Positions 35,177 through 52,182 of a stretch of DNA of 52,182 nucleotides are shown here, piece after piece. Positions within the stretch are counted from its first letter, which is position 1; every line of letters starts with the position of its first letter. Both the position numbers and the translations under genes were made by a program. This DNA comes from a virus: positions 1-52,182 of IMG/VR virus record IMGVR_UViG_3300006925_000024; one strand, written 5' to 3'. The notes beneath the pieces are model-generated. The model was not told the origin of the DNA, ran no database searches, and worked only from the letters and a program-made list of their open reading frames with translations.

Positions 35177-36022
35177 TTACCACTTGCTACTCAAAAGAGG
35201 TTTACTGTAGATTTTTGCTATTTCATTAAGTTCAGCAATATCTAACCCCGATTCATAGCCCATTTTATCTAAATATCGAACCATGTCGTTTGTTGAAAGA
35301 TTGCTACCACTACCATGAACGAAGGGACAACCTCCTAATCCACCAATACTGGTGTCAAATTCGGTGATACCCCATTCTAAAGCAGTTTGAATGTTTACAA
35401 ACATATTGTCTTTTTTGTCCTTTCTGTGATGTAAATGGAGTGCTATCTCAGAATCAATATGTTTTGACAACTCAAGAGTTCGGAAGATAAGAGAAGGGTG
35501 GGCTTTACCGACTGTATCACAAAGAACAACAGTGTCAGCCATGTGCTGTGCTGCTTGCATAGCCTTCAATACTTTTCTTTCATCTACGCTTTCATTAGGT
35601 GCTCCGAAGGCACAAGAAACGTATGCTCTAACATTTTTAGTGTCGGTATTTTGGAGCATTAAATCCAACTCACTTACAATCTCATCCATGTTTTTTCCTA
35701 AGTTGGCTTGATTAAAACTATCAGATGCTGAGAAGAAGACATTTATTTTTTTAGCGCCAGCGGCTTTCGCTCTATCCATTCCTTTTTGATTTGGAACAAG
35801 AACAGCAAAGTTGTCAATGTCACGAGTGGCCTGAAACACTTCTTCAGCGTCAGCCATGTTTGGAACGTACTTAGGATGAACAAACGAGGTAACCTCCATT
35901 TGGTTTAAACCAACATCGTAAAGTCGATGTATCAAATCAATTTTTTGATTAGTCGGTGTGAACTCCTCTATGTTTTGCAAACCGTCACGAGGCCCGACTT
36001 CGTAGAGGTTTACATCACTCAT
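35177..36022 (-). CDS. HMG-CoA lyase-like enzyme (DRE-TIM metallolyase family, 281 aa)
   Basis: HMG-CoA lyase splits hydroxymethylglutaryl-CoA into acetoacetate and acetyl-CoA in leucine breakdown. The protein aligns over its full length with that family: YEVGPRDGLQN (Arg12, Asp13), EVTSFVHPKYVPNMAD, VRAYVSCAFGAP, the metal-binding HLH (His196, His198) and GLGGCPFVHGSGSNLSTND with the active-site Cys232 and Asn241. The segment after HLH differs: HHRKDKKD replaces the usual HDTYG. The ATG at 36022 has GGGTGA five bases before it; a GTG at 36031 is the alternative. All key residues that I can align are kept, so it is probably active, though the substrate may differ. A viral copy inside the packaging module is unusual and looks host-derived. 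Confidence 0.88.
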   Translation of the reverse strand: MSDVNLYEVGPRDGLQNIEEFTPTNQKIDLIHRLYDVGLNQMEVTSFVHPKYVPNMADAEEVFQATRDIDNFAVLVPNQKGMDRAKAAGAKKINVFFSASDSFNQANLGKNMDEIVSELDLMLQNTDTKNVRAYVSCAFGAPNESVDERKVLKAMQAAQHMADTVVLCDTVGKAHPSLIFRTLELSKHIDSEIALHLHHRKDKKDNMFVNIQTALEWGITEFDTSIGGLGGCPFVHGSGSNLSTNDMVRYLDKMGYESGLDIAELNEIAKIYSKPLLSSKW

Positions 36023-36911
36023 TTTGCTCACCCATTATCCTTCGGTCAGCGAAAAATCTCGACGGGTCTTCAGCGATAAGTTGTTGAAGTGCTTCTTGTG
36101 CAGCGGCTTCTTGGGAGTTTACCCTTTGCTTACCTCGTGCTAAAGCACTAACAGCGCTCATGAATGGCTTTCTACCTTCTCCAAGATACGAAGGATTTGA
36201 ACGTGCTTCGATGTAGTCAGGATTGTTCTTACCTTCTTGGAACATCATTTCACCCATACCTTCAGCCGATGCCATTTCAGGATGTGTCGTGGCTAATGCG
36301 TTGGTAGCCTGAGTTCCAAAACGGTCAATCAAACTTTGACGTAGTGCTGGTGCTCGTTGCATAGATGAGGCTACATCTGAAAACTGTCTCGCTGTTGCTT
36401 TATCACCTGCATCTCTGAGAGAACTGGCTTCTTGGAATAGGTCATCAATGCTGGCTTTTTTGAGTGCCTTTCTTTTCATATTATTAAAGATAGCATCGTA
36501 GAGATTTTCTTCGTTAGTCTTAGCGGGAACAGAATCTTGCACCGCTTCAGGTTCAGGTTCAGGCTGACTTGCTTCTTCAAACTCTCTATGCGCCGCAAGC
36601 ATACGATTGTATTCATCAGCCTGTTCAGGAGTCATACCAGCGTATGGGTCACCATGTTTTTCACGGATTTCTTTTAGTGGCTTAACTCCGACATATCTAT
36701 TAACGTCTGCACCCAATTTTTCTCTAAAATCTTCTTGTCCTGATGCTTCGTCAGATGTGCCGTATTGTCCTCGAAAGTCGTCTCTTGTACGGATTCCTTT
36801 CTTCTTTGAATCAGGGTCAGCAGCGTGCGTAGGGTCTTTGTCGCCTTTCTTGCCTACTGAAATAATCAGCACCATACCGTGTTTCTTTCCGCCCATTTTC
36901 TTTTCTTTCAT
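36015..36911 (-). CDS. unknown charged protein next to the large terminase (298 aa)
   Basis: The ATG at 36911 overlaps the terminase stop as ATGA, which is why it is preferred to an in-frame GTG at 36923. The N-terminus is very basic (MKEKKMGGKKHG) followed by a hydrophobic strand. The middle is acidic/Pro-rich (PEPEPEAV), and residues about 160-260 are helical with RSNPSYLGEGRKPFMSAV. No motif is recognised. It lies between the terminase and the HMG-CoA lyase-like gene and may be a minor virion or packaging protein. Confidence 0.7.
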   Translation of the reverse strand: MKEKKMGGKKHGMVLIISVGKKGDKDPTHAADPDSKKKGIRTRDDFRGQYGTSDEASGQEDFREKLGADVNRYVGVKPLKEIREKHGDPYAGMTPEQADEYNRMLAAHREFEEASQPEPEPEAVQDSVPAKTNEENLYDAIFNNMKRKALKKASIDDLFQEASSLRDAGDKATARQFSDVASSMQRAPALRQSLIDRFGTQATNALATTHPEMASAEGMGEMMFQEGKNNPDYIEARSNPSYLGEGRKPFMSAVSALARGKQRVNSQEAAAQEALQQLIAEDPSRFFADRRIMGEQNE

Positions 36912-39516: not shown

Positions 39517-41846
39517 CAGACACCACCTACACTTACTTTGACGACCTTAACAACGTCAGTAGAAACATTGAGTCGCTTTGCAATTCGTTCCCAGTCACCA
39601 GTGGCATATGCAATTGAGCGAACATCAACAGGCGTGAGGTCTACGCTCTTGGCAAGATAGTGAATAGCACGACGGTTACCGACATTGACTGGTCGAGTTA
39701 AAGCGTGCTTCATGATTTTGCTGTCATTACGAGCGTCATCTAACTGCATATTTTCCATAGCCTTCATGACTCTATCCATTGGAGAGAGTTCAGCCGATTG
39801 AGACTTCATGTATTGAGTAAGTAATCGCTGGCGTGGGTCACCCATGAGTTGTTGATACTGCTGCTCTTGAGGTGAAAGACCCATACCTTCTCCTTGAGGT
39901 ACTCTTGCTCCAGCCGCTTCTATGATTCTACGAAGCGATGCTGGGTCAGCCTGTCCGACACGACTTCGTGCCGCTGCCATTTCAGCGCTTTGCGGTGTGA
40001 AAGAAGGTGCTCCCCGTTGAGGGACAGACGGAGGTAGGGTCGTCTGTTGAGGCGCTGGGGGAGCAACAGCGACCTCAGTGGGAACAGGTTGTTGACGTGG
40101 TTCAGGTCGTCCAGTCGAAGTAGTAGAAGGTCTTGTAACCGATTCTCTTTGAACTGGAGCGAGTGCTACGTCGTGGTGACTTGGAATGTGTTCAGGTAGA
40201 TTTTCAATAATTTGTTCAGGATATTGCATAAAGCGAGAAGACAATCCAGTAGTCGGGAGTGATTCAGGTAACTGACGACGGGTTTGATGACCAAATGCTT
40301 CGCTGAGTAAATCAGCCAAAGCCTGAGTTCCTTGTCTACGTTGCTCAACAGTATCATAACTTTGAAGATTCAACCCCAGTCCTTGAATGACAGCGGGGTC
40401 GATGTTACCTTCAGCATCTCTTGGCATGTAGGCTCGCAACGCACTGTCGTGCTCATCATGTGCTCCACTCAGCATAGCCTTAGCGTAAAACTTAGCAGCG
40501 TTTTCGTGAGTTCCCAAACCTTGTGTTGTTCTTTGTCCATCCAGCGTTTCCAAGTGAGCGCCGGGTACAGCATGGCTACGCATGTTGTCAAATCCAACAT
40601 CGTGGTCTTTCCCAAAGGCATCAAGAATATGTTGGAACGCTCGCTTACCCACACCGGGTCTTGCCGCCGAACCGCTAATGATACGACCAAACAACATGTT
40701 GAAGGCTGGGGTTCGTGATAATTCGTTAATCATGTTGTCAGTGCTGGCTGGACTTCGCAACACAGTTCTAAGATTCATCATTGTATATTGAGGAGAACCA
40801 GTTGTGCCGGGAGTCGTGTTGATTGGTACTTCAACATCAGGGACTTTATCAGGGTCAATGACCTTTAGTGCTTCAGCGATGTGAACTTTTGCACTGTTGA
40901 TTGAATTTTTTGGCCCTGTTTGTTGGCGACCAGCCATCATGTGCATAAAATCAGGAGTATGATTCATGACTTCCCAAGACTGGATTCCAGTGTGGGCTGC
41001 GTCATGGGAAACACCGGGAGGAGCATTGGTAAGATGTGTGCCGGGTAGCATATACCCTTGAGGTGTTTGGATGATAGAGTCACCACCTCGACCACGAATA
41101 CGACTACCACGAGGATGTAAGTCCTTGATGTCAATATGAGGATTGTCAAGGAACTCAGCACCAACTAAATCTTTGATACCGAGTTCTTCAAGTAGAATTT
41201 TTTGTAGATTGTGATTGTAAGGAACGGCGTAGGATTCAATCATAGCACCAATTTTTTCCTTACGGTTAGGTCGATTTGTATACGCTGTGATGTATTCACC
41301 ATTATTAGTTCTATGAGCACGAGTGGTGGGTTTACGTCCACCATACCCAGCGACTTGAATTTTACGATGTTGCATGTCATCAACATCAGGAATGTCTTGA
41401 GCACCAGTTTTGTCTTGATGTTCAAGATTTGTCATTTTGATGGCACGCTGAACAATGTTTCGACCAGTAAGTTGTCCCAACTCAGGATGGTCTTGACCAA
41501 GCATACCATTTTTCTCAAGAGCCTCACCAATGGCGTGTATCACACCGTCAATTCCGTGATGGTGAGATTCTCCATTATGGTCAAGGTAGACCATTTCATC
41601 ATGCTTACCTTTGACGAATTTACCGGGAATTAATTCACCCATACCAAAGTGTCCTAACGGGTGTGGTTTTGCTACACCATAATGAGCATAAGCAGGAACG
41701 TCAGGGGTATTTGGGTCAGGGTGTATTGCTTCAGGAGGTGGAGAAGTTTTCAGATACGGAGTAAGTTTTCCCGTTTCAGGATGAGGATAATAACCGTATA
41801 CACCGTCACCCTTGAGGATAATTGACTTGCGAACTAAGACATTCAA
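39516..41846 (-). CDS. large unknown virion-type protein (776 aa, TTG start)
   Basis: The start appears to be TTG at 41846, overlapping the previous stop, with GGGAGTGG upstream; no ATG is nearby. The N-terminal 400 residues are rich in His, Gly and Asp (ESHHHGIDGVIHAIGEAL), the 540-640 region is Pro/Gln/Thr-rich and likely disordered, and the last 60 residues resemble a helix-turn-helix (RSIAYATGDWERIAKRLNVS). The His/Asn-rich style resembles the first 1300 residues of the 1833-residue protein, so the two may be related in role. No enzyme motif was found. Confidence 0.75.
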   Translation of the reverse strand: MNVLVRKSIILKGDGVYGYYPHPETGKLTPYLKTSPPPEAIHPDPNTPDVPAYAHYGVAKPHPLGHFGMGELIPGKFVKGKHDEMVYLDHNGESHHHGIDGVIHAIGEALEKNGMLGQDHPELGQLTGRNIVQRAIKMTNLEHQDKTGAQDIPDVDDMQHRKIQVAGYGGRKPTTRAHRTNNGEYITAYTNRPNRKEKIGAMIESYAVPYNHNLQKILLEELGIKDLVGAEFLDNPHIDIKDLHPRGSRIRGRGGDSIIQTPQGYMLPGTHLTNAPPGVSHDAAHTGIQSWEVMNHTPDFMHMMAGRQQTGPKNSINSAKVHIAEALKVIDPDKVPDVEVPINTTPGTTGSPQYTMMNLRTVLRSPASTDNMINELSRTPAFNMLFGRIISGSAARPGVGKRAFQHILDAFGKDHDVGFDNMRSHAVPGAHLETLDGQRTTQGLGTHENAAKFYAKAMLSGAHDEHDSALRAYMPRDAEGNIDPAVIQGLGLNLQSYDTVEQRRQGTQALADLLSEAFGHQTRRQLPESLPTTGLSSRFMQYPEQIIENLPEHIPSHHDVALAPVQRESVTRPSTTSTGRPEPRQQPVPTEVAVAPPAPQQTTLPPSVPQRGAPSFTPQSAEMAAARSRVGQADPASLRRIIEAAGARVPQGEGMGLSPQEQQYQQLMGDPRQRLLTQYMKSQSAELSPMDRVMKAMENMQLDDARNDSKIMKHALTRPVNVGNRRAIHYLAKSVDLTPVDVRSIAYATGDWERIAKRLNVSTDVVKVVKVSVGGV

Positions 41847-43111
41847 ACTCGTCCACTCCCTCTACCAACAAGAGCACCGGGGTCAAGTCCAAAGTCTCGT
41901 GGCTCATTGTCTACATCTTCTGTAGCACCTTCGTTTCGATTTGTTTGTTTTGGGCTGTTGGCTGGATAATTTGGTAATGTGCTCGCAGCACCAGCGGTAT
42001 CACCGTCACCTTTACCTTTTCTTTTGCCGTCTTTGTCTTTCTTTTCACGCATCAATTCACGAATTTCTTTTAGAGCAATTCGCATCAATGCTGCTTGATA
42101 TGCATTACCTTTGAGAATGTCACTGTGTTGAGGGATGTCCTCACTCATTGTAATCATGCTCGGCATCTTAGGACGTACTAAGTGAGGCATCTTCATCTTA
42201 GGTGGTTGAATACTTGGAGCACGAACTGCATGTAGTCGTGGTCTTGGGACACGAGGATATTGTAGTGTGTTTGTCAAACGACCTCCACCAGTTTGACCTG
42301 AGATGAAAGAGCGTTGGCTGTGTTTCATGTGTGGCGTAGTAGTGCTTCTCACACCACCTTGTAATTTACGAGCCTCTTGTGAAGCAAGATAAGCACCATA
42401 TTTCTGTGGGTCTTTACTCATCGGTTGTTTACTCGCAAGACCTCGGTGAGAAAACTCAACAGAAAGATGTTGCCTCATAAGTCCAGTTTTACGCCCCAGC
42501 GGTAGATTACGACTGATGTTCTTGGAACGCCTTGATGTGGCGTTACGAGGGTCACCTCCCCCTTTTGGACGTTCAAATTGACCAGTAGATGGTCGCCATT
42601 TAGCGTAGCCTTCTTTCTTGCGTCGTTTGCCTACGGAACGCTTCGTTTCTTTTTTTTTAATCGTGTCCGACTTAAGCAGTTGCCAAGCGATGTCCATAGG
42701 TTCAGACATTTGAATCATCTCTCCACCAGCAGCACCCGGCCCCTTAGCACCCATAGCAAGACTTGTCATGAATCCACCAGCGCCGCTTGGCATAGTTTGT
42801 TTGGATGGGTCGTCAACTGAGCCACGAGGTTTGAACTTCTCCTCTTCTTCATCTACCTCTTCATCAGGTTTTTCATCACTAATACCAAGATGATGTGAAC
42901 GGACTTTGATGTGACGAATTTTTTTGTCTTCTTTTTCTTCACGTTCTCGCTTGGCTTGTCTCTTGTCCTTGCGTCTTTCCTTATCTTTGGCATCTTCGAC
43001 ACCGCTGGGTGGGCGTTCATCTTCATGATTCGCCCTGAACATCTCGGAGGATTCTGAGCGAGGATTATACATCCTCGTGTCGGAGGTTCGGCCCATCATC
43101 CCTCCCGTCAT
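41843..43111 (-). CDS. basic unknown protein with PMDIAWQLLK peptide (422 aa)
   Basis: The first 120 residues are highly charged (Lys/Arg/Glu). Residues 138-147 contain PMDIAWQLLK, shared with the protein at the right edge through an identical 26-base stretch. After it comes a strongly basic region (KRSVGKRRKKEGYAKWRPS) and Pro/His/Arg-rich segments. A Lys/Glu-rich helix (RIALKEIRELMREKKDKDGK) lies near residue 350. The ATG at 43111 has GGGGGAT before it. No family is recognised. Basic composition and the shared peptide fit a DNA-associated internal virion protein, as inference. Confidence 0.72.
   Translation of the reverse strand: MTGGMMGRTSDTRMYNPRSESSEMFRANHEDERPPSGVEDAKDKERRKDKRQAKREREEKEDKKIRHIKVRSHHLGISDEKPDEEVDEEEEKFKPRGSVDDPSKQTMPSGAGGFMTSLAMGAKGPGAAGGEMIQMSEPMDIAWQLLKSDTIKKKETKRSVGKRRKKEGYAKWRPSTGQFERPKGGGDPRNATSRRSKNISRNLPLGRKTGLMRQHLSVEFSHRGLASKQPMSKDPQKYGAYLASQEARKLQGGVRSTTTPHMKHSQRSFISGQTGGGRLTNTLQYPRVPRPRLHAVRAPSIQPPKMKMPHLVRPKMPSMITMSEDIPQHSDILKGNAYQAALMRIALKEIRELMREKKDKDGKRKGKGDGDTAGAASTLPNYPANSPKQTNRNEGATEDVDNEPRDFGLDPGALVGRGSGRV
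42672..42697 (-). repeat. 26-base exact repeat, copy 1 (second copy at 51801-51826)
   Basis: This stretch encodes MDIAWQLLK plus flanking bases and is identical to 51801-51826, about nine kilobases away, in the same strand and reading frame. Flanking DNA is unrelated. Confidence 0.9.
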
Positions 43112-43506
43112 GAGTTATCCCCCACGATATGATGTTCAAAACACTGTCGCAACTTTTGAGCCATTTTTCTATAGAATAACGCTACTCTTGGACTGTCTTC
43201 AAATGCGTGAGTCATGTTTTTGATTGTATAATCAAACTCTTCAAGCAATCGAGGAATAAGTTGGTAAGCAGGGAAAAAGGTTACAGGATTATCGTCTTCA
43301 AACACTGTCTCAAACGATTTTGCCAGCAACTTGAACAAGTCGGGTGGTGTGATGTCTAACTCACCGTAATGCTCAAATCGTTTTGTAACACAACGGCAAA
43401 AATCAAGATAAACTGGTACAGCGTTTTCAGAAATTGGTCGGTCACATTCAACGAACGTGAACGCAGGGTGCGTCATTTGTAGTAAGTCAGGAACTGGTAC
43501 TGGCAT
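43108..43506 (-). CDS. small helical unknown protein (132 aa)
   Basis: I place the ATG at 43506, overlapping the previous stop as TGATG, with AGGTGAT about ten bases upstream. The protein is helical, with aromatic and Cys residues (FCRCVTKRFEHYGEL). A repeated pattern FKLLAKSFETVFED and LIPRLLEEFDYTIKNMTHAF is visible. The end overlaps the 422-residue gene by four bases. No family is recognised. Confidence 0.7.
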   Translation of the reverse strand: MPVPVPDLLQMTHPAFTFVECDRPISENAVPVYLDFCRCVTKRFEHYGELDITPPDLFKLLAKSFETVFEDDNPVTFFPAYQLIPRLLEEFDYTIKNMTHAFEDSPRVALFYRKMAQKLRQCFEHHIVGDNS

Positions 43507-44189
43507 CAATTCATATCACCTGCGTGTTCCAGTAAAGACTCACGGATTCTTGCCCATGAGTCAGGGCTTTCTTTTCCGAGTTCGACTTTGAGAATGTTAA
43601 TTGTGTTATTGACTTGACTGTTTTCAGACGTAGGACTCCATTGTTCGTTCATCTTCAACAAATCCTTTATTGATTCTCTGACTTCTTTGTGCAGAGACAC
43701 TGCATCTTTGACGAAACCGTCTTCATGGACACTACCCTCATTGAGCAGTTCAGACAATTTATGGTTGAGCAGTTCGACGTTTGACCTGAGCGCATTTATC
43801 TCCTCTCCTACGACTAATGTTATCTCAGCGGCTGCACTTCTTTGAACTAACGGTTGAAAGTGGTGTTTCATATGGTGGTACACCGATGCTTCAGAGATAC
43901 CAAGTTCTTCTCCAATAGCCTCTGATTCGGAGCCATCAGCAAAAAAACGTCGTTCAAAGTCGGCTCTTTCAACATGAGCACATACCTTACACTGAGGATT
44001 CGATGCCATATGATATTGACCCATGTGATTACGAAAGTGACGGTCAGTTGTGTTGAGTCGCCAACCCATGTCTTTGTCAAGTTGTTTTGGGGATATTTCA
44101 CCATCAAGTAGACCTTTTTCTAAGTCAGCACGACTCGGGTGTTGACACAAAGGGCAAGACCTTTTTGTGATAGCATCGCCCTCCGCCAT
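43506..44189 (-). CDS. tandem zinc-finger/HTH protein, possible small terminase subunit (227 aa)
   Basis: Two similar modules follow each other: CPLCQHPSRADLEKGLLDG with HFRNHMGQYH (Cys12, Cys15, His51, His55, His60), and CKVCAHVERADFERRFFADG with SEASVYHHMKHH (Cys67, Cys70, His105-110). In each, a Cys pair precedes a helix-turn-helix-like segment ending in His residues. The second half is a long helix set (KEVRESIKDLLKMNEQW). This DNA-binding plus oligomerisation design and its place first in the packaging operon fit a small terminase subunit, but a regulator is also possible. It diverges from the plus-strand gene at 44249. Confidence 0.65.
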   Translation of the reverse strand: MAEGDAITKRSCPLCQHPSRADLEKGLLDGEISPKQLDKDMGWRLNTTDRHFRNHMGQYHMASNPQCKVCAHVERADFERRFFADGSESEAIGEELGISEASVYHHMKHHFQPLVQRSAAAEITLVVGEEINALRSNVELLNHKLSELLNEGSVHEDGFVKDAVSLHKEVRESIKDLLKMNEQWSPTSENSQVNNTINILKVELGKESPDSWARIRESLLEHAGDMN

Positions 44190-44248: not shown

Positions 44249-44509
44249 ATGCTCCCGCCATACGAAAGAGTTCCCAAGCAACCTCTCAAAGAACGTGGAA
44301 AGGATATACTTAAGGCTTCAAAAGATGCACTGAAAGGCCGTAGAGTCTCAACATCGGAATACATGAAACGACTGGACAAGTGCTATAGTTGCCCTTACAT
44401 GCAAAAAAGAATGGGTACGTGCCAACTTTGTAATTGCGTTATGAAAATCAAGGCTCTCGCCCCTTCGATTTCATGTCCGATAAACAAGTGGTCAGCGAGT
44501 GATTCGTGA
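44249..44509 (+). CDS. small Cys-rich zinc-binding phage-type protein, only plus-strand gene (86 aa)
   Basis: The C-terminal half has CYSCPYMQKRMGTCQLCNC and then SCPINKW, a C-x2-C ... C-x2-CxC ... CP-x3-W pattern seen in small proteins of many tailed marine phages. The N-terminal half is basic and helical (PLKERGKDILKASKDALKG). It is read opposite to everything else and its end overlaps the end of the 79-residue gene by 18 bases. The ATG at 44249 lacks an obvious ribosome site. Function is unknown in this family. Confidence 0.8.
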   Translation: MLPPYERVPKQPLKERGKDILKASKDALKGRRVSTSEYMKRLDKCYSCPYMQKRMGTCQLCNCVMKIKALAPSISCPINKWSASDS

Positions 44510-44731
44510 GTAAAGCGTAGTCAAAAAGATAAACGCTCCAAAGATACCAACGACAAAGACACTAACATCTCCACTACTCATTTCGTCTCCTTTGAAAATT
44601 AAAATAGACACACAAGCGATAATCACAGAAATAAACTGAACCATTATCATTTCAGTAATGATATTCCTACTTGGAGCAAAAATACTACTACTTGCTTCGC
44701 TTAATCTCATTCCGTAATCTCTTGATTGCAT
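44492..44731 (-). CDS. small two-helix membrane protein (79 aa)
   Basis: Two hydrophobic segments are clear (residues about 27-46, ITEMIMVQFISVIIACVSIL, and about 56-73, VSVFVVGIFGAFIFLTTL) joined by a short charged loop KGDEMSSGD. AAGGTGATACA precedes the ATG. It ends the membrane/GTPase operon. Size and topology resemble a holin, but no muralytic enzyme gene is seen and other roles are equally open. Confidence 0.75.
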   Translation of the reverse strand: MQSRDYGMRLSEASSSIFAPSRNIITEMIMVQFISVIIACVSILIFKGDEMSSGDVSVFVVGIFGAFIFLTTLYSRITR

Positions 44732-44740
44732 TGTATCACC

Positions 44741-45400
44741 TTAGTTTCTTGGTAGCCCTATAAGCCCACGAGCGACACTACCGATTCCGCCGCCAACTTT
44801 ATTCATCATACCTTCGTCTTGTAAAGCAGCACCGAGAGCGTTACCCATCATTGATTGTTGAGACATAGCCATAATTTGTTGACGTTGCATTTCAGCCTCT
44901 TGGAATTTTTGATTGCTTTGAGCCGTCATGTTGTTAAGAATCATACTCACGTTCTCAACGCTTAATGTTTGTAAATCGGACGGTAGTGTAGAGGCGTCAA
45001 GTTTCATAACACCAGTATCTTCATCCAATGAGAATGAAGCGTTTTTGAGAATGTTCAGTATACTTAGACTGGTTGTAGTAGCAATCAACTCTATGAGTGT
45101 TTGAAGTCCACCTTCTCTGATAAAACGATGAATTGGATTTTGTGATTGTAGCAGAGCCGATAGGAGTTCCATTTCTGACGGGGGGGTCACTTGCCCGTTC
45201 TGCATCATCATTTGTTGCTGAGGTGTCATTCCTACACCGCCCATCATACCCGACATAAATCCTTGATTCTGTTGTTGCATTGGTTGTGCTCCAAGAGGAA
45301 AATTACTTTGCGGTTGTTGCATTCCGTAACCCACTCCTCCTCCAGTTGCTGAAAGATTTAACCCACTTTGCGGTTGTTGCTGTGCTCCAAGATTGAACAT
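44741..45400 (-). CDS. Gln/Met/Gly-rich protein with ordered middle (219 aa)
   Basis: I choose the ATG at 45400 over an in-frame TTG at 45421; GGGGAGG lies about ten bases before it. The first 75 residues are Gln/Gly/Met-rich low complexity. Residues about 75-160 are ordered helices (LIELIATTTSLSILNILKNA). The end has QMMNKVGGG-like Gly/Met residues. It resembles small virion proteins with disordered arms, but no family is recognised. Confidence 0.7.
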   Translation of the reverse strand: MFNLGAQQQPQSGLNLSATGGGVGYGMQQPQSNFPLGAQPMQQQNQGFMSGMMGGVGMTPQQQMMMQNGQVTPPSEMELLSALLQSQNPIHRFIREGGLQTLIELIATTTSLSILNILKNASFSLDEDTGVMKLDASTLPSDLQTLSVENVSMILNNMTAQSNQKFQEAEMQRQQIMAMSQQSMMGNALGAALQDEGMMNKVGGGIGSVARGLIGLPRN

Positions 45401-45404
45401 CGTA

Positions 45405-46334
45405 TCATGCCTCCCCAGCAACTACTCCACCATCAAGGTTCTGTTGCATTTTGCTATTCTCAACATTGAGAAGTTCTTGAAACGCTTGCGTCGGCATGTT
45501 CATTTGTTGGAGTTCCATTTGAAATATACGGAGGTCAAAGACAACCATTGTTACATCATTTTGACCAGTGGCTGGATTAGCATAATGAAGTACATTGATG
45601 CCTTTTGTTTTACCAGCATCTCTTTCGAGTTCAGCAAAGAACGGCTCATATTTTTTCAGCATGGCAGGTGTAGGGTCATCTTTCTTGACAGAAGAAATAG
45701 GGACTGTTACAATTGATACACCTCTCTTCACTTTATCACGAAGACGACTTGGGTTCATTTCACTCTGTTTGTCTTCTTCAGCCTCCCACTTGACTAAAAG
45801 ATGGTAAAGGTGCATGTGTTCAGGACAGTATGTTCCTTTGAGTTTACGACCACTGGTTATTTTATCTTGAGCAACAAACGCTTCGGGTTGCCCTGTGACT
45901 GGGTTCTGCCAATACATTTCCCAAAGAGAGCGCCCTGTTTCGTCGTCACAAATACGCATGTAGAGATTATCATGTTGTATGAGGTTAGCGCAGTTACAAC
46001 CATCTACAACGCAAGTCCCTGTATCTTTTGCGTATCTGTATTTACGACCAAGTAAGAATCTTACAGGATTAAACATTGAACGCCTTGCAGGTTGAAGTAG
46101 TTTGTAGGCTTGTTTAATGTCCTTACGACGAGCCTTTCTTGGGTCAGGGTGACGACTTGGATAAAAATTAACCTTCGGAACTTCGATATTCTGAGCAGCA
46201 GCAACTTCTTGCATACTCTGTTGAGCCATCAACATTTCCTGAAGTGCCGCTTGAGTAAGTTGATTGTTACCTTGCGTAGCAAGAATAGCAAGTTCGGCTT
46301 CAGTTAAATTTTGTTGAGGTCTGTTCCATGACAT
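45405..46334 (-). CDS. unknown protein with Cys/His cluster (309 aa)
   Basis: The ATG at 46334 overlaps the AbrB-like gene stop as TGATG. The N-terminus is a Gln/Ala coiled coil (residues about 10-50). A Cys/His cluster follows: CVVDGCNC near residue 110, then a Cys and YCPEHMHLYH near residue 170, which probably binds zinc. A basic region (RKARRKDIKQAYKLLQPARR) lies at about 68-90. The C-terminal part is alpha/beta with VTMVVFDLRIFQMELQ. It belongs to the GTPase operon; function is unknown. Confidence 0.72.
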   Translation of the reverse strand: MSWNRPQQNLTEAELAILATQGNNQLTQAALQEMLMAQQSMQEVAAAQNIEVPKVNFYPSRHPDPRKARRKDIKQAYKLLQPARRSMFNPVRFLLGRKYRYAKDTGTCVVDGCNCANLIQHDNLYMRICDDETGRSLWEMYWQNPVTGQPEAFVAQDKITSGRKLKGTYCPEHMHLYHLLVKWEAEEDKQSEMNPSRLRDKVKRGVSIVTVPISSVKKDDPTPAMLKKYEPFFAELERDAGKTKGINVLHYANPATGQNDVTMVVFDLRIFQMELQQMNMPTQAFQELLNVENSKMQQNLDGGVVAGEA

Positions 46335-46531
46335 CACTTTACCACGACCTGTTCAGCCGTAGGAGTCATGACTACAACAATGTGTCCCTCTTGTACTACA
46401 AACTTCCAATGCACATCATCCCCAGCACTCATCCCAAAATGTTCAACAATCCACATAGGTACAGTGGTTCTTAGGCTACGACTGCCACCACCAGTAGAAA
46501 CGAGTGTTGTTGATGAGTTTTTGCCTGACAT
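46334..46531 (-). CDS. AbrB/SpoVT-type swapped-hairpin DNA-binding protein (65 aa)
   Basis: The core RSLRTTVPMWIVEHFGMSAG then DDVHWKFVVQEGHIVVVM follows the AbrB/MazE pattern of short strand, VP-x-hydrophobic helix, G-x-GD turn and strand pair. Length is right for a single-domain dimeric regulator. The first 18 residues (Ser/Thr/Gly-rich) are extra. GGTGTAAAT precedes the ATG. It lies directly after the GTPase gene in one operon. It might control the operon or the divergent promoter; the target is unknown. Confidence 0.75.
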   Translation of the reverse strand: MSGKNSSTTLVSTGGGSRSLRTTVPMWIVEHFGMSAGDDVHWKFVVQEGHIVVVMTPTAEQVVVK

Positions 46532-46586
46532 ATTTACACCGAAAGCATTGTTATTGAAAAGGCTACCTATGGGGTCATTTTTTGGG

Positions 46587-47309
46587 TCATGAAGTAAGTA
46601 GGCTTACCATTGTCTTCTCTACGTTCCATCCAATTCTTGTTGCCATAAATGACCTGCGAGTAGGAATACCCGCTTTCTGTAACCTGATTAGGTCGTCTCT
46701 AAACGGGTCAAAAATCTTATGCTCACCTATACGACCATCGTGCCAAAGTTTTGAAGCAGTCTCATCGAAAAAACGGTCAGCCTTATTTGCTACCAACATG
46801 ATAACTTTGGGATGATACCTTCTTCCTTTAAGCCTCGACCAAAGAGAACGATAGCGATAATTTCTCTCAATAAGACAATCAACAAGATAACGAAAACCTG
46901 CTAATTGTTCAATCCCTTCATCTCCTCCTTGGAAGGCTCTGTGGTCAAACATGTAGACGATGGCTTCACATTTGCGAGTCACCATGTCTTCAATCCAAAG
47001 GTTCCAAAAACGCTCTTGTCCTCCTATATCTGCCGAATAGACAACTCGTTTTTCACCTTGCCAAGATACTCTTTTTCTTGTTGGAGTTGGCATTTTGAAC
47101 TTACCAATTTTAAGAATGCGAGAATGCATTGTCCGTTCATCTTCGGGTATTTCTTCCATTTCACCCGGCGTTGTAAGGTAACGGTCAAGCGTTGTTTTAC
47201 CAACCATCGGCGCTCCATAGATACCAACTTTTCGTGGCTTATATGAATTGTAGAGATTTTGACCCCACATCGCAGCGCCTACTAAGGCTGTTCCACCTGC
47301 GTCTACCAT
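46587..47309 (-). CDS. Ras/Arf-like small GTPase (240 aa)
   Basis: All diagnostic GTPase motifs are present in order: P-loop GAPMVGKTT (residues 32-40), DIGGQ (94-98) matching DxxGQ with the catalytic Gln98, NKAD (175-178) for guanine specificity and SFMA (220-223) near the place of the SAK motif. Length 240 is slightly above the usual 170-200, with extra residues around 45-80. The first 25 residues are Gly/Ala-rich and could be an amphipathic membrane anchor. The ATG at 47309 overlaps the membrane protein stop as TAATG; an in-frame TTG lies 21 bases upstream. It forms an operon with two membrane proteins and an AbrB-like protein. Such GTPases act in membrane traffic and polarity in eukaryotes and prokaryotes. 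The viral role is unknown. Confidence 0.88.
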   Translation of the reverse strand: MVDAGGTALVGAAMWGQNLYNSYKPRKVGIYGAPMVGKTTLDRYLTTPGEMEEIPEDERTMHSRILKIGKFKMPTPTRKRVSWQGEKRVVYSADIGGQERFWNLWIEDMVTRKCEAIVYMFDHRAFQGGDEGIEQLAGFRYLVDCLIERNYRYRSLWSRLKGRRYHPKVIMLVANKADRFFDETASKLWHDGRIGEHKIFDPFRDDLIRLQKAGIPTRRSFMATRIGWNVEKTMVSLLTS

Positions 47310-47566
47310 TAATTCCACCACATGAGCCAATTAACAAGTTGTTCTAACTTATCAACAGTCCATTCAATAGTATTTTCATAAACGCTAAAGTCTGTGTTAT
47401 GAAACTCAATTCCACTAACAACGACTGCTGTAATCAATGATGCGAGTATGGTTTTTACCCATCCCCACGCTCTTTCGTAGGTAGTATCTACTGTGTTGGC
47501 TATGTGAATAGCACGTAGCGTACTTTCAGTAGCATCATCAGAAGGAGTGCGAAAGATTCGACCCAT
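47309..47566 (-). CDS. single-pass membrane protein (85 aa)
   Basis: A hydrophobic segment at residues about 36-53 (WVKTILASLITAVVVSG) follows a soluble N-terminal part with YERAWGWVK. The C-terminal 30 residues are amphipathic and Trp-rich (WTVDKLEQLVNWLMWW). It lies between the two-helix membrane protein and the GTPase gene, sharing a stop/start overlap with the latter, so it is a good candidate membrane partner of the GTPase. GAGGATTAACT precedes the ATG. No family is recognised. Confidence 0.72.
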   Translation of the reverse strand: MGRIFRTPSDDATESTLRAIHIANTVDTTYERAWGWVKTILASLITAVVVSGIEFHNTDFSVYENTIEWTVDKLEQLVNWLMWWN

Positions 47567-47575
47567 AGTTAATCC

Positions 47576-48193
47576 TCAAGATTTCTTTTCATATCTCTTA
47601 TCAGGCGTACCGTCTTTTTTCAAACGAACTTGTTCTTCTACACCGAGAGTGAGAGGTTGTAGAATCTGAGCCTCATGAGTAGGAATCTTACTACTGTCAA
47701 AAGTAGCAGCACCCCCACCTTGTTGGTCGTAAATACCAACCATAGACTGAGAGCCACCTTGCACGCCCCACGATGGAGGCATCTTACCGGGGTTTTGTTC
47801 CATCCATCGAAGTTCACGTTCAAGTTGTGCTTCTTGCATACGCATTTCCATATCGGCTCTGCGATTATCAAACTGTTGTTGCATACTACGGTATTGATGG
47901 TTTCTTTGTTTTTCCATGTTACCATGTCTCACTTTTTCTTGTAGGTTTTGCTCAAAGAACATTTTAAAGAAGTAGTAAGCAATACCTTGAACAAAGAATG
48001 CACCCATAGCATAGGTAAATCCATTTATCCAAACACTGTCTTGTGTTAGCCAAACCTTTGAGTCAAAGATTCCTACTGCTACTCCAACCAATGTACTTTG
48101 GGCTAAAATTAGTCCCATCAATCGTATTTCTGCATCGTGATGCTCTTGCGATTCCATAATGTCCACTGGTTTGTCCACTGCGGGGGTCACCAT
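47576..48193 (-). CDS. two-helix membrane protein with coiled-coil tail (205 aa)
   Basis: Hydrophobic segments at residues about 24-43 (RLMGLILAQSTLVGVAVGIF) and 56-80 (INGFTYAMGAFFVQGIAYYF) are followed by a long charged, Gln/Met-rich coiled coil (about 81-135) and a flexible C-terminus. This is the first gene of the GTPase operon, right after the largest non-coding gap in the window. It could recruit the GTPase or shape a host membrane. Start is ATG at 48193; an in-frame Met13 is a less likely alternative. No family is recognised. Confidence 0.75.
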   Translation of the reverse strand: MVTPAVDKPVDIMESQEHHDAEIRLMGLILAQSTLVGVAVGIFDSKVWLTQDSVWINGFTYAMGAFFVQGIAYYFFKMFFEQNLQEKVRHGNMEKQRNHQYRSMQQQFDNRRADMEMRMQEAQLERELRWMEQNPGKMPPSWGVQGGSQSMVGIYDQQGGGAATFDSSKIPTHEAQILQPLTLGVEEQVRLKKDGTPDKRYEKKS

Positions 48194-48302
48194 AAAGGTT
48201 GCTGGATGTGTTGTCCGTGTTGTCCGTTGTATAGTCTATACATTTAGAAGAATAGTAAATACAGTATATTGTGTAAACAATACATCGTACAAGTTAGACA
48301 AC
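48194..48302 (-). promoter_or_regulatory. promoter region of the membrane/GTPase operon with 16-base inverted repeat
   Basis: At 109 bases this is the largest gap between genes. It is AT-rich in the middle and includes a perfect inverted repeat TATTGT-4 bases-ACAATA at 48267-48282, the same 6-4-6 layout as the repeat at 44205-44220. On the minus strand GGACAACAC is tandemly repeated closer to the start. TATA-like stretches are present, but none stands out as the single promoter element. Confidence 0.5.
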
Positions 48303-49337
48303 TTAGAATGGATAAGGATGCATCAATTCTTTTCTTTCTTCGCCGCCTTGCTCTTGTTTGAAGTCATCCAATGAGGTAATGAGAGCCTGTGCAATCTTTT
48401 TATCTTGCTCGTCCATCGGGCCGTTCATTAGGTTTCGTAGCAACTCAAGGTCACCTCTGATACCCTTTGTTAGAGGGCGCTTTGTTCCCTTGTCTTTGAA
48501 ATGTCGTGCTCGGTTGTCATGCTCATCTTCTACTGTCAATTTACCACCTTCGGTGTGTGATATGTCTCGGTGCGAGTGGTCACCATACATCCCACGTTTA
48601 CGTCGCTCTCTGTTTAACTCTTCTCGATACTTGACTCGTTCAGGAGATGCTTCGTATTGTTTGTCATACTCCAACTTATGTCGCTTCGCTTCAGGCGACT
48701 TTCGCTCTTTACGAATCACACCAACACCTAAGTTCATTGGCTCACCTGTGGTTATCATTTGTTGATTTTGTGCTAACGGTGTCATCTCGGCCTGTCGAAC
48801 AGATATTGGAGTGTTCATATAATCTTGAAGTCTCATGTTATGCCTTGCCATTTTACCACTTGGTAGTTTTACTCCCTTTCCCCCTGTTCTCGGCGGAGAC
48901 ATTTCAAAACCTGTTTGGCCGTGTCTGAGTCTACCATGTAAAACTCTCATCATGTTTGAAAGAGTTTTTTGATTTTGAATGTCTTCATTACTTCTATTAT
49001 TTTGATAATAAGATTGAGGGACTGTATATCCTCCTTCTTGATTGGAAAAATTACCTACAAAACTTGTCGCTTCGTTTTCATTTAAGGGGAAAGGTAAATT
49101 TTCGTCTTGATAAGAACGAGGATTAGTAGATACTTCAGACGTTGGTTTAGTAAATTCACCAGTAAGATAAGGTGTCATTAAATCGCCAAGCGTAGAATTA
49201 GGATTCTGCTCTAAATGTGATTGCAAAGCATCGTAATTCAATTCAGTAGGCAAGTGTTGCATTATGTCTCCACGAAAAGACTGCCCCGATGGTATCGCTT
49301 TAAGCAAGCGCCATGCCTCGTTGAAAAACTGACTCAT
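48303..49337 (-). CDS. unknown protein with N-terminal Ala-Trp peptide (344 aa)
   Basis: I start at the ATG at 49337, one base after the previous stop, and not at an in-frame ATG 66 bases upstream that lies inside the preceding gene. The start then reads MSQFFNEAWRLLKAIPSGQ, putting the AW peptide at residues 5-13, as in the neighbouring 105-residue protein. The middle is polar and disordered-looking, Asn/Ser/Gln-rich. A charged section KLEYDKQYEASPERVKYREE lies in the second half, and the C-terminal helix set has LITSLDDFKQEQ. No family is recognised. Confidence 0.75.
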   Translation of the reverse strand: MSQFFNEAWRLLKAIPSGQSFRGDIMQHLPTELNYDALQSHLEQNPNSTLGDLMTPYLTGEFTKPTSEVSTNPRSYQDENLPFPLNENEATSFVGNFSNQEGGYTVPQSYYQNNRSNEDIQNQKTLSNMMRVLHGRLRHGQTGFEMSPPRTGGKGVKLPSGKMARHNMRLQDYMNTPISVRQAEMTPLAQNQQMITTGEPMNLGVGVIRKERKSPEAKRHKLEYDKQYEASPERVKYREELNRERRKRGMYGDHSHRDISHTEGGKLTVEDEHDNRARHFKDKGTKRPLTKGIRGDLELLRNLMNGPMDEQDKKIAQALITSLDDFKQEQGGEERKELMHPYPF

Positions 49338-49338
49338 A

Positions 49339-49656
49339 TCAACAATTCCATCGTTTAAGAGAAGCCCCTTTTGGTGTAAGTTTACCGCCTTTACTGGTAG
49401 CACCTTTCATTCCACTCATACGAGCACAAAATGATTTACGACGCTTTGCCGACTTACTACCCGGCTTGAGTGAACTTGGTTTCTTAGTTACAGGTGGTTT
49501 GAGGTTTGCGCCCGTTTTTCGCTTGGCTGCGGCACGACCCTTAGCGTTCAGTCCACCTTTCTTACTGTGTTTGTTAGGATTGTAACCATGAAAAGGCTTT
49601 GACTTCTTCTTTCCCTTTTCAATAACGTCCCATGCTTCATCAAATGCAGTCATCAT
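49339..49656 (-). CDS. small basic phage-type protein with KSFCARM motif (105 aa)
   Basis: It starts MMTAFDEAWDVIEKGKKKSK and then has SKKGGLNAKGRAAAKRKTGA, a Lys/Pro middle, KSFCARMSGMKG and a LKRWNC end. This order (GGLNxKGR, NLKPP, KSFCARM, RKWNC) is a widespread small protein family of marine tailed phages, which I recall as DUF6321 but could not verify. It is very basic and likely binds nucleic acid. ATGA overlap with the upstream gene. Function is unknown in the family. Confidence 0.82.
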   Translation of the reverse strand: MMTAFDEAWDVIEKGKKKSKPFHGYNPNKHSKKGGLNAKGRAAAKRKTGANLKPPVTKKPSSLKPGSKSAKRRKSFCARMSGMKGATSKGGKLTPKGASLKRWNC

Positions 49657-49967: not shown

Positions 49968-50128
49968 TAATACACACCGACCATTTTCTTGATGTTTTTT
50001 TGTTTGTCAATAAGAGCATAACAAGGACACTTTGGAGATGAAGCCGAACATTGATTACCCTCAATCATGCATACGCAGGGTGTTTTTTTCGTACCACCGC
50101 AACAACATGAAGGTTTTTTGAGTTTCAT
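49967..50128 (-). CDS. Cys-rich small protein (53 aa)
   Basis: A short frame with nine Cys, mostly in residues 8-36 (SCCCGGTKKTPCVC and QCSASSPKCPC). Its ATG overlaps the upstream stop as ATGA and its stop overlaps the next ATG as TAATG, so both ends are coupled; GGGAAG precedes the start. The cysteine density suggests zinc or another metal cluster. No signal peptide is seen. Not recognised as a known family. Confidence 0.82.
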   Translation of the reverse strand: MKLKKPSCCCGGTKKTPCVCMIEGNQCSASSPKCPCYALIDKQKNIKKMVGVY

Positions 50129-50550
50129 TTCTTCTTCCCCTTTTTGCCTCTGAACTTACCTTTACAGTATTGAACAGCCCAACCATTAGCATACGCTGAT
50201 GGGTAAACATCGAACTTTTTCTTAGCAGCAGCCTTTCCAGCAGGGCATAATTTCTTTTCAAGGAAATCCCATGCAAATTCAAAGGGTGAGAGTTCACTTG
50301 CTAATTTAACATCATTATTTTCAAGTGCGGTTGGGTGTACCATACTATGTACGTCATATTGCTGAGCACAGTCCATACACATATGGTGCGTGTAATCTTT
50401 TGTTAAAGTTGGGTTAGCGTAGCGAATTGAAATGACAGCATTCGGATTCGGGCAAAGTGTGCAATTTTCTTCTATATCAGCGCCTGAACTAACGCTTTTC
50501 ATTTCAACAGGGGCGTTAAAAATGTCTTTCCGTAACAAATTGCTCAACAT
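50125..50550 (-). CDS. zinc-binding phage-type protein with KKFDVYPSAYANGW motif (141 aa)
   Basis: The ATG at 50550 follows GGGTGATACT; a TTG 12 bases upstream is less likely. Residues 30-33 (CTLC) and 58-61 (CMDC) make a Cys4 zinc site. Residues 90-98 carry FEFAWDFLE, the shared Ala-Trp peptide. The end LCPAGKAAAKKKFDVYPSAY then ANGWAVQYCKGKFRGKKGKKK matches a common marine phage C-terminal module, which I recall as DUF5872 but could not verify. Strongly basic tail. Function is unknown. Confidence 0.8.
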   Translation of the reverse strand: MLSNLLRKDIFNAPVEMKSVSSGADIEENCTLCPNPNAVISIRYANPTLTKDYTHHMCMDCAQQYDVHSMVHPTALENNDVKLASELSPFEFAWDFLEKKLCPAGKAAAKKKFDVYPSAYANGWAVQYCKGKFRGKKGKKK

Positions 50551-50554
50551 AGTA

Positions 50555-52182
50555 TCACCCAAACATCCTTGCTAATTCATCAGTATCAAGTCCATCAATA
50601 CCTCTTGTATTACTTTGAAGTGGTCTTTTAAGTGGATTAAAGTCATCAAGAGATGACTGAGTGTATTCTCTTACTTGTGGAGTGGTAGGGTCTGTATTAT
50701 CTTGAACATAAGAACGGTTTGTAATTGGTAAGTGAGTGCGAGGTATTATTGGCTTATCCATGCTACCAAACATTGGGTATTGATTGCCAAACATCGGTTT
50801 TAAGTCACCCCATCCTGTCATGTCTATATCGTCTTCAGCCTTTTGATTAAATTGAGGGTTAAACCCGTAAAGATACTCTTGGTCTGTTCTTCCCTCAAGT
50901 TCATTAAATGTCGATGAAGGGTTAGCATTTTTACCTTTTACTTCGATGTTTGCTGGTAACCGCCGTTGAAACTTTTCATGAAATGGCTGAGAATACTTCA
51001 TGTTTCTATTATCCGACAAAATGCCTATTTTATTCTGAAGTATGGTATCAAGTAAATTTCCATAGTAACCTTGCCGTCGATGTTCTTTAGGTGTTCTTGA
51101 ATCTAAACCTCTTACTGTGTGATTAAGATGAGGAACTTTTTCTGGTGAATATTCAAGCATCGTATTCGTTGTGGTTGAGGAGAATCTTCTACCATCATCA
51201 TCTGTTAGAAGAAAATTACGTCCACGACCACCCCGTCTGCCCGCCGCCCGCACTTCTACTTTTGTTGGTGTTGGTCGTCCTTCTTTGTACTGCATACGGT
51301 CTTCGTAACCTTCTTTAAATTTCTTTCTTGTTTTCGGACCCGACATCAATCTTGTAAACGTCTGATTATCTTCATCAACTTTCATATCAGGTCTATTTCG
51401 TATGGCTTCATTAAGAGAGTATGTAAATGGTAAATTCATTGGAAGTGTTGATTGCTCAAGTTCAACAGCACCCATTAGACCTTCGAGTGTACCCATAGAA
51501 TCAGAAGTCTGACCTCTATCTGAAAAGTACCCATGTCTTTGCTCATCACGTCTTCGGGCTAAATGTTCTGCTATATCATCCATAGAGAACATTGGTTCAC
51601 GCATTTGCGAATGAGGACTTCTTGATTCCCTATTTTCCCTCAGTCGTCGGTCATTTTCTTCTGTAGGGAATCTTCTTGATGAATATTGCGAGTTTTCAAG
51701 AGGTTCTTCTAATTGTTCAATAGCGGGTCTATTCATTTCGTCAAGTTTTCTTCGTATGGTTGACATATTGTTGTTAGGTCGCTGTTTATCTTCTCGCATT
51801 TTAAGCAGTTGCCAAGCGATGTCCATTGGTTTTGCCTTTCCAACTTCTGCACCACGGCGAGCCATATCAGAGGCACGTTGCTGTTGTGCTTGTTTCTGCT
51901 GTTGACTGTTTGCTAATGCTTGTTGTGCTACTTGCATCGCTTGATTTTTTTTCTTTTGTGGATTAAGGGTACTGGACGCCATAGTTGGCTCAGGCGCTGA
52001 TGGTGTTTCAGGCATTTCAGGCTCAGGCATCTCAGGTGCTGGTGCTGAAGGCATTGATTCTACGGCTTCGCTTGCGGGACTTGGTGCAGTTGGACTTTGT
52101 GTTTTACCGCTGATTTTACTCGTGAGTTTTTTTGCACCATCTTTGAAATAATTACTTTCTTTAACGGCTTGGTTCTTTAGCC
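50555..52182 (-). CDS. large unknown protein with PMDIAWQLLK peptide, cut by the right edge (at least 542 aa)
   Basis: The frame stays open from 52054 back to the window edge (LKNQAVKESNYFKDGAKKL in the outermost codons), and the ATG at 52054 has no ribosome site, so the real start probably lies outside. The part seen starts with Ser/Ala/Pro repeats (PEMPEPEMPETPSAPEPT), then a Gln-rich helix, then KPMDIAWQLLKMREDKQRP. Polar Arg/Asn/Glu-rich regions follow, then possible ordered parts with AAGRRGGRGRNFLLTDDDGR and PEKVPHLNHTVRGLDSR. No family is recognised. It heads the accessory cluster. Confidence 0.75.
   Translation of the reverse strand, partial: LKNQAVKESNYFKDGAKKLTSKISGKTQSPTAPSPASEAVESMPSAPAPEMPEPEMPETPSAPEPTMASSTLNPQKKKNQAMQVAQQALANSQQQKQAQQQRASDMARRGAEVGKAKPMDIAWQLLKMREDKQRPNNNMSTIRRKLDEMNRPAIEQLEEPLENSQYSSRRFPTEENDRRLRENRESRSPHSQMREPMFSMDDIAEHLARRRDEQRHGYFSDRGQTSDSMGTLEGLMGAVELEQSTLPMNLPFTYSLNEAIRNRPDMKVDEDNQTFTRLMSGPKTRKKFKEGYEDRMQYKEGRPTPTKVEVRAAGRRGGRGRNFLLTDDDGRRFSSTTTNTMLEYSPEKVPHLNHTVRGLDSRTPKEHRRQGYYGNLLDTILQNKIGILSDNRNMKYSQPFHEKFQRRLPANIEVKGKNANPSSTFNELEGRTDQEYLYGFNPQFNQKAEDDIDMTGWGDLKPMFGNQYPMFGSMDKPIIPRTHLPITNRSYVQDNTDPTTPQVREYTQSSLDDFNPLKRPLQSNTRGIDGLDTDELARMFG
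51801..51826 (-). repeat. 26-base exact repeat, copy 2 (first copy at 42672-42697)
   Basis: Identical to 42672-42697 and in the same frame, encoding MDIAWQLLK within the gene that runs off the right edge. Confidence 0.9.

Follow-up and report, generated by a model that had tools for sequence, protein, structure and literature searches.

A conserved late gene module with a predicted Ras-like GTPase and small membrane proteins in tailed viruses, most likely of archaea

Results

Genes and regulatory features of the module

The window, the whole 52,182-nucleotide stretch of IMG/VR virus record IMGVR_UViG_3300006925_000024 that was analysed, carries on its minus strand a series of genes for two predicted membrane proteins (p205 and p85), a Ras-like small GTPase, an AbrB-like protein, a Zn-binding-type protein (p310), a Q-rich protein (p226) and a third small membrane protein (p79; Table 1). 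The first-pass annotation had described the first four of these as one operon located behind the largest non-coding gap. All four ORFs were confirmed on the minus strand at the coordinates originally given, and the gap, of 109 bp, indeed ranked first among gaps between called genes (ranking of called genes only, with the plus-strand ORF between p79 and p227 counted in). The TAATG overlap reported between the p85 stop codon and the GTPase ATG was also present and set the limits of the GTPase coding sequence, while a TGATG overlap joins the stop codon of the AbrB-like gene to the ATG of the next gene. Since gene order and reading frames were conserved across 166 loci, chance ORFs could be ruled out.

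Table 1. Positions of module genes and other features in the window.
Feature	Position	Strand	Occurrence and remarks
Non-coding gap before the module	48194-48302		109 bp
TATA-like box CCTTTATGG	48190-48198	-	Edge of the 109-bp gap; consensus match
Twin CAGTGGACA repeats	48158-48181		
p205, two-helix membrane protein, charged/Q-rich tail	47576-48157 (ORF to 48193)	-	162/166 loci
p85, single-pass membrane protein	47309-47566	-	165/166 loci
Ras-like small GTPase, 240 aa, extra N-terminal helix	46587-47309	-	166/166 loci
AbrB/MazE-like 65-aa protein	46334-46531	-	93/166 loci; lineage-specific insertion
p310, Zn-binding-type protein	45405-46334	-	166/166 loci; core; group 2 homologue
p226, Q-rich N-terminus, conserved C-terminal half	44741-45400	-	166/166 loci; core; group 2 homologue
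p79, 79-aa two-helix membrane protein	44492-44731	-	166/166 loci; last module gene in group 1
Cys-rich 86-aa ORF	44249-44509	+	127/166 loci
p227, candidate TerS-like protein	43506-44189		166/166 loci
Proteins with AW motif	41843-43111, 48303-49403, 49339-49656, 50125-50562, 50555-52054		
HMG-CoA lyase-like gene	35177-36031		PF00682, 5e-29
ORF of ~4,200 residues	1-12617	-	Truncated by the window's left end

The TATA-like box, a consensus match, was retained in near relatives whose sequence diverged on both sides of it, and is probably, as judged from its sequence, the archaeal promoter of the module. Because this conserved box overlies the upstream start of p205, translation probably begins at ATG 48157, which would yield a protein of 193 instead of 205 residues. 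The twin repeats between the box and this probable start were kept in the nearest relatives and are possible operator or initiator elements. A scan for sigma-70 promoters and terminators, which is ill-suited to archaea, yielded hits at chance level only. The p226 ORF opens at a TTG codon (45421).

Downstream of p79, the counter-oriented Cys-rich ORF resembled DUF6171 (E 1.8e-5); where present in the 166 loci (group 1, window included), its place was constant and its strand always opposite to that of the module, which it bounds. The next protein, p227, contains two CxxC...HxxxH repeats with helix-turn-helix segments and invariant ligands, and is a candidate terminase small subunit. Elsewhere in the window, the motif (M/F)(D/N/E)xAWx(L/F/V)(L/I), e.g., PMDIAWQLLK, was common to five otherwise unrelated proteins. 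Its expected number in shuffled ORFs was 0.05, for a motif picked after being seen. Group 1 relatives carried 0-8 copies per 17 kb and none occurred in HCTV-1 or in three loci of a second virus group (group 2, see below); the motif is possibly a capsid-targeting or delivery tag. The long ORF at the left end probably encodes a giant tail or fibre protein.

Virus and predicted host

Genes for TerL, portal, protease and an SU10-like major capsid protein (MCP) lie on one strand with the module. The MCP had its best GenBank matches in HCTV-1 and HVTV-1, both tailed viruses of archaea (33-34% identity); family B DNA polymerase (PolB) was encoded in all ten long related contigs (95-107 kb), and the HMG-CoA lyase-like gene, a feature described for Aoguangviridae (PMC10768690), is situated within the head gene region. 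Based on the MCP relatives, PolB and HMG-CoA lyase, the source is most likely a tailed virus of archaea, large in genome (~95-108 kb) and belonging to the Magrovirales, whose characteristics of a ~90-110 kb genome, PolB and an MCP related to that of Druskaviridae were all observed. The host is probably a member of the Poseidoniales. About 340 contigs from both virus groups in IMG/VR carried the module. Contigs of both groups were also encountered in public MAGs that bear the labels Asgard archaeon HMA_bin2.96 and Maricaulis sp. IN14; these placements were most likely binning errors, and neither organism was considered a host.

Sequence and predicted structure of the GTPase

The GTPase contains the motifs GAPMVGKTT (G1), RTxH (switch I), DIGGQ (G3), NKAD (G4) and a G5-like MATRIGWN. 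G1, the switch-I threonine and G4 were found in all 163 intact copies, and G3 as defined by a narrow pattern in 151. The aspartate and glycine of G3 were invariant in the GTPase alignment, and the motifs were kept in group 2 as well. The G3 glutamine was Q in most group 1 copies and D, E or H in the others; every group 2 copy in the alignment had E at this position. As this residue is often D, E or H, GTP hydrolysis may be slow or partner-dependent.

An AF2 model based on 57 homologues (pLDDT 77) showed a Ras-like topology, b1-a1-b2-b3-a2-b4-a3-b5-a4-b6-a5, with an additional N-terminal helix; it superseded an earlier model from 19 sequences that was too weak (pLDDT 61). Foldseek returned Rab27, Rab1, Rab5, Rac and Ras as top matches (probability 1.00, E about 1e-8), and every significant viral match listed came from a eukaryotic giant virus. 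The predicted structure places the protein in the Ras superfamily. The N-terminal helix shows only moderate hydrophobicity (mean H about 0.4), and its amphipathic character is weak (moment about 0.22). Neither tblastn searches with GTPases of both groups against 50,697 GenBank phage records nor sequence searches of the PDB with GTPase and Zn-protein profiles gave a match, in the latter case at a significant level.

One GTPase copy, in IMG/VR contig G028 (L265, 1498-2208), contained a single in-frame TGA, reflecting a sequencing error, readthrough or decay. Several Asgard GTPases (L449-L459) have a GGQxxFWxLW switch II that resembles the viral one, and a number of them are fused to an N-terminal IRTLECxxC segment; by this sequence likeness, they are possible cellular kin of the viral GTPase.

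Membrane proteins and other module proteins

The membrane topologies proposed in the first-pass annotation agreed with hydropathy analysis. For p205, described there as a two-helix membrane protein with a long coiled coil, one strong and one weaker transmembrane (TM) peak were found, and nearly all homologues showed one or two; the long, charged and Q-rich tail probably forms a coiled coil. A single TM peak, as expected for a single-pass protein, was present in p85 and in 160 of its 165 homologues, and the N-terminal region of this protein is conserved (FxTPxDDxxExTLRAxHxxNTxD). Two TM peaks were found in p79 in 165 of 166 homologues. Among the 44 called genes of the window, only p205, p85 and p79 encode small dedicated membrane proteins.

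In p310, residues C108, C170 and H173 were invariant and could be aligned in group 2 as well. The p226 protein gave a very weak match with phrog_14074, a virion structural family (E 0.028). Six proteins of the module and two of group 2 had no match among PADLOC defence families, and comparison of the module proteins with Pfam, PHROG and NCBIfam yielded no holin, endolysin or other lysis match above chance level.

Gene order in group 1 and the AbrB-like gene

Gene neighbourhoods were compared among 166 group 1 loci, a few contigs giving two overlapping loci; the GTPase scan had yielded 123 relatives and a wider scan 226. The order p205 > p85 > GTPase > (AbrB) > p310 > p226 > p79 > p227 was constant wherever the contig was long enough. 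Neighbours therefore did not vary freely among the 166 loci that keep the GTPase, and the proposal of a single module made up of the GTPase, p205 and p85 was supported, both by this invariant order and by its recurrence at another site in group 2. The four-gene make-up originally put forward stood for p205, p85 and the GTPase and failed for the AbrB-like gene, which was missing from 73 of the 166 loci and from all of group 2; p310 and p226, found in both groups, and p79, found in group 1, had been overlooked.

In loci that lack the AbrB-like gene, the GTPase stop codon adjoins the p310 start; 32 of these loci have a spacing of 4 nt. When the GTPase tree was rooted with group 2, presence of the gene required two changes, and it was missing from the lineages closest to the root. 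Together, the tree changes, the root lineages and the joined flanks indicate that the AbrB-like gene is a late insertion and not part of the core. Its sequence pattern was conserved in all of its 93 loci, but its score against PF04014 (E 0.019, 15.4 bits) fell below the cut-off of 24.7, so that the 65-aa protein is not an AbrB/MazE member by the curated profile.

The GTPase was as conserved as TerL: median identities to the window were 0.72 and 0.57 for the GTPase in loci with and without the AbrB-like gene, respectively, and 0.76 and 0.55 for the terminase. In the window, GTPase and TerL genes are roughly 8.5 kb apart. Four contigs with MCP and TerL and no GTPase hit break off within ~1-6 kb of TerL in the direction of the module, nearer than this distance and thus short of the expected block. 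Most other MCP-positive, GTPase-negative contigs showed no TerL, so that neither set indicates a true absence of the GTPase. In a lineage with 53-58% identical MCP (L461, L462), no module was found in 40 kb of each contig, nor was TerL found.

A second virus group with the block at another site

Two contigs in the MAG labelled Maricaulis provided the first group 2 members, with GTPases ~30% identical to those of group 1 (E about 1e-33). Their gene order was 2-TM protein > 1-TM protein > GTPase > Zn protein > Q-rich protein. A scan revealed 118 contigs of this kind. Among 82 loci compared, 69 had the complete series protease > MCP > 106 > 91 > 2TM > 1TM > GTPase > Zn > Q-rich; the remainder showed shorter stretches in the same order, consistent with cut contigs. 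Thus, the module lies behind the MCP in group 2, between capsid and small head genes and later morphogenesis genes, and upstream of TerL in group 1. The same five-gene order at a different genome site indicates, by gene-order comparison, that the genes relocated together, as a block, between virus lineages that diverged deeply.

Profile comparison by hhalign related the two groups through the GTPase (E 1e-33), the Zn protein (3e-9) and the Q-rich protein (5e-6). For p205 and p85, matches with the group 2 membrane proteins were not significant (E 0.13 and 0.14), and their probable kinship is suggested by order, topology and short shared motifs. Two group 2 loci showed no counterpart of p79 downstream of the module. 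In HCTV-1 and vir519, which have related capsid proteins, none of the module genes occurred in the stretches searched.

Discussion

Comparison with known systems

ArvA is a small GTPase, encoded in an operon with a Zn-ribbon protein, that drives vesicle budding in Haloferax (PMC10927574). Like the viral module, the euryarchaeal ArvABC (OapABC) system combines genes for a small GTPase and a Zn protein in one operon in an archaeal setting, and the ArvA helix has been proposed to touch the membrane in a membrane-deforming role, to which that of the viral GTPase may be likened. However, integral membrane proteins occur on the viral side, G3 is Era-like (DxPG) in ArvA and DIGGQ in the viral protein, and no Pfam match to ArvB (DUF2073) or ArvC (DUF2072) was found in the module proteins. 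ArvA proteins, taken from Asgard genomes via OapB, scored 14-15 bits with the viral profile, versus 27-42 for further cellular GTPases that those genomes encode, and identification of the viral GTPase as ArvA was rejected. By analogy, it may work like ArvA without being a member of that family.

Rab/Arf-type GTPases share with the viral protein the fold, motifs G1-G4, a GGQ-type switch II and a membrane context. In contrast to them, the viral GTPase has an extra N-terminal helix, a longer switch I region (in group 1), a variable G3 glutamine and a non-canonical G5 position (MATRIGWN in group 1, SAK in group 2). The Ras/Rab/Ran-like GTPases of giant viruses (Nucleocytoviricota) have the same fold and are also virus-encoded, but their best structural matches were only 12-18% identical and these viruses infect eukaryotes; the two sets probably represent separate captures. 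To our knowledge, no such module accompanies the giant-virus GTPases.

Phage lysis cassettes (holin/endolysin/spanin) likewise consist of late-clustered small membrane proteins in a mobile cassette, whereas the viral module contains a GTPase and a Zn protein and no endolysin or known holin family. The PVAP pyramids of SIRV2 and STIV1 (PMC4456609) exemplify dedicated egress of archaeal viruses by membrane remodelling, the role that is proposed for the module. However, PVAP is a single protein of unrelated viruses that acts with no GTPase, while the module is multi-gene.

Proposed function and alternative explanations

The reading to which we give most weight, although its chances are slightly short of even, is that the late, membrane-bound GTPase module acts as a switch at the host membrane that serves virion assembly or exit. 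The GTPase would be a GTP-controlled switch on the cytoplasmic face of the membrane, held there by its N-terminal helix and by p205 and p85. The Zn protein p310 would act as a regulator of the GTPase (GAP- or GEF-like) or as its effector. The scaffold would consist of p205, including its tail, together with the Q-rich protein. Upon GTP loading late in infection, membrane would be gathered or deformed, so that virions assemble there and leave the cell. The AbrB-like gene would be a later regulatory add-on of one lineage. In archaea without peptidoglycan, where a holin-endolysin route is unworkable, the module would replace it. Endolysin-holin egress is ineffective in such archaea and the egress mechanism of most archaeal viruses is unknown (PMC4456609), which is why release is put first here. 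This reading is favoured by the fixed gene order in both groups and the relocation as a block, the cross-group homology of three proteins, the Ras-superfamily fold, terminase-like conservation of the GTPase, the confinement of small dedicated membrane proteins to the module, its late position and the analogy with ArvA. The modest hydrophobicity of the N-terminal helix, the non-significant matches of p205 and p85 with group 2 proteins and the variable G3 glutamine speak against it. A more specific version, in which a viral Ras-like GTPase is recruited by two membrane proteins and governed by the Zn protein in a new exit (or membrane-assembly) machine that deforms the membrane, is put forward only tentatively.

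The late position of the module, beside TerL or MCP and among morphogenesis genes, fits head assembly equally well as release. GTPase and membrane proteins might thus form a membrane-tethered platform that marks or times the assembly site for prohead, portal and packaging, with release left to something else. The location of the module between capsid/small head genes and later morphogenesis genes in group 2 and just upstream of the TerS-like gene and terminase in group 1 is consistent with such a platform, as is the very weak match of the Q-rich protein with a virion structural family. However, HCTV-1 and vir519 have related capsids and no such genes in the stretches searched, which indicates that the head itself is independent of them, and known scaffold or portal partners showed no homology to the module proteins; we consider this explanation unlikely, if a serious contender. 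Adjacency to structural genes, together with Q-rich and G-rich proteins similar in composition to internal virion proteins, would also agree with p205, p85 and p79 being parts of the virion, whether at an inner membrane, at the tail tip or in an ejected channel, and with co-packaging of the GTPase. Tailed virions have no membrane, and the magrovirus virion is by prediction an ordinary head-tail particle (PMC12999244, PMC10768690), so that a role as virion component appears quite improbable.

Membrane proteins combined with a host-type signalling fold could instead point to superinfection exclusion or host takeover, in which the viral protein would imitate a Ras-like GTPase of the host and block host membrane processes or incoming viruses; the lack of a defence-family match leaves room for such a private function. 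Exclusion genes are, however, usually variable, while the module is constant, has a GTPase whose rate of change is as low as that of the terminase, and occupies the position of late genes, so that this explanation seems improbable. Finally, conservation of the entire late gene order in group 1, p79 and p227 included, would be expected if the genes were merely neighbours in a conserved late operon with no joint function. The occurrence of five genes together, in the same order, at another genome site in group 2 speaks against this view and makes it very improbable.

Implications

A search of the open-licence literature revealed no paper that combines GTPase and magrovirus, and a survey of magrovirus functions (PMC10160649) makes no mention of a GTPase. 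The module is new as a system and wider than first described, with a function that we infer. It makes a Ras-superfamily GTPase, as assigned from the structural model, a core gene of prokaryotic tailed viruses. If the proposed role is true, it would represent a membrane system with a small GTPase that a virus encodes and that operates in a prokaryote. For the question of how tailed viruses exit from archaea without peptidoglycan (PMC4456609), it provides a multi-gene candidate that is constant across very common viruses of the ocean, and this candidate makes the question of archaeal egress directly testable.
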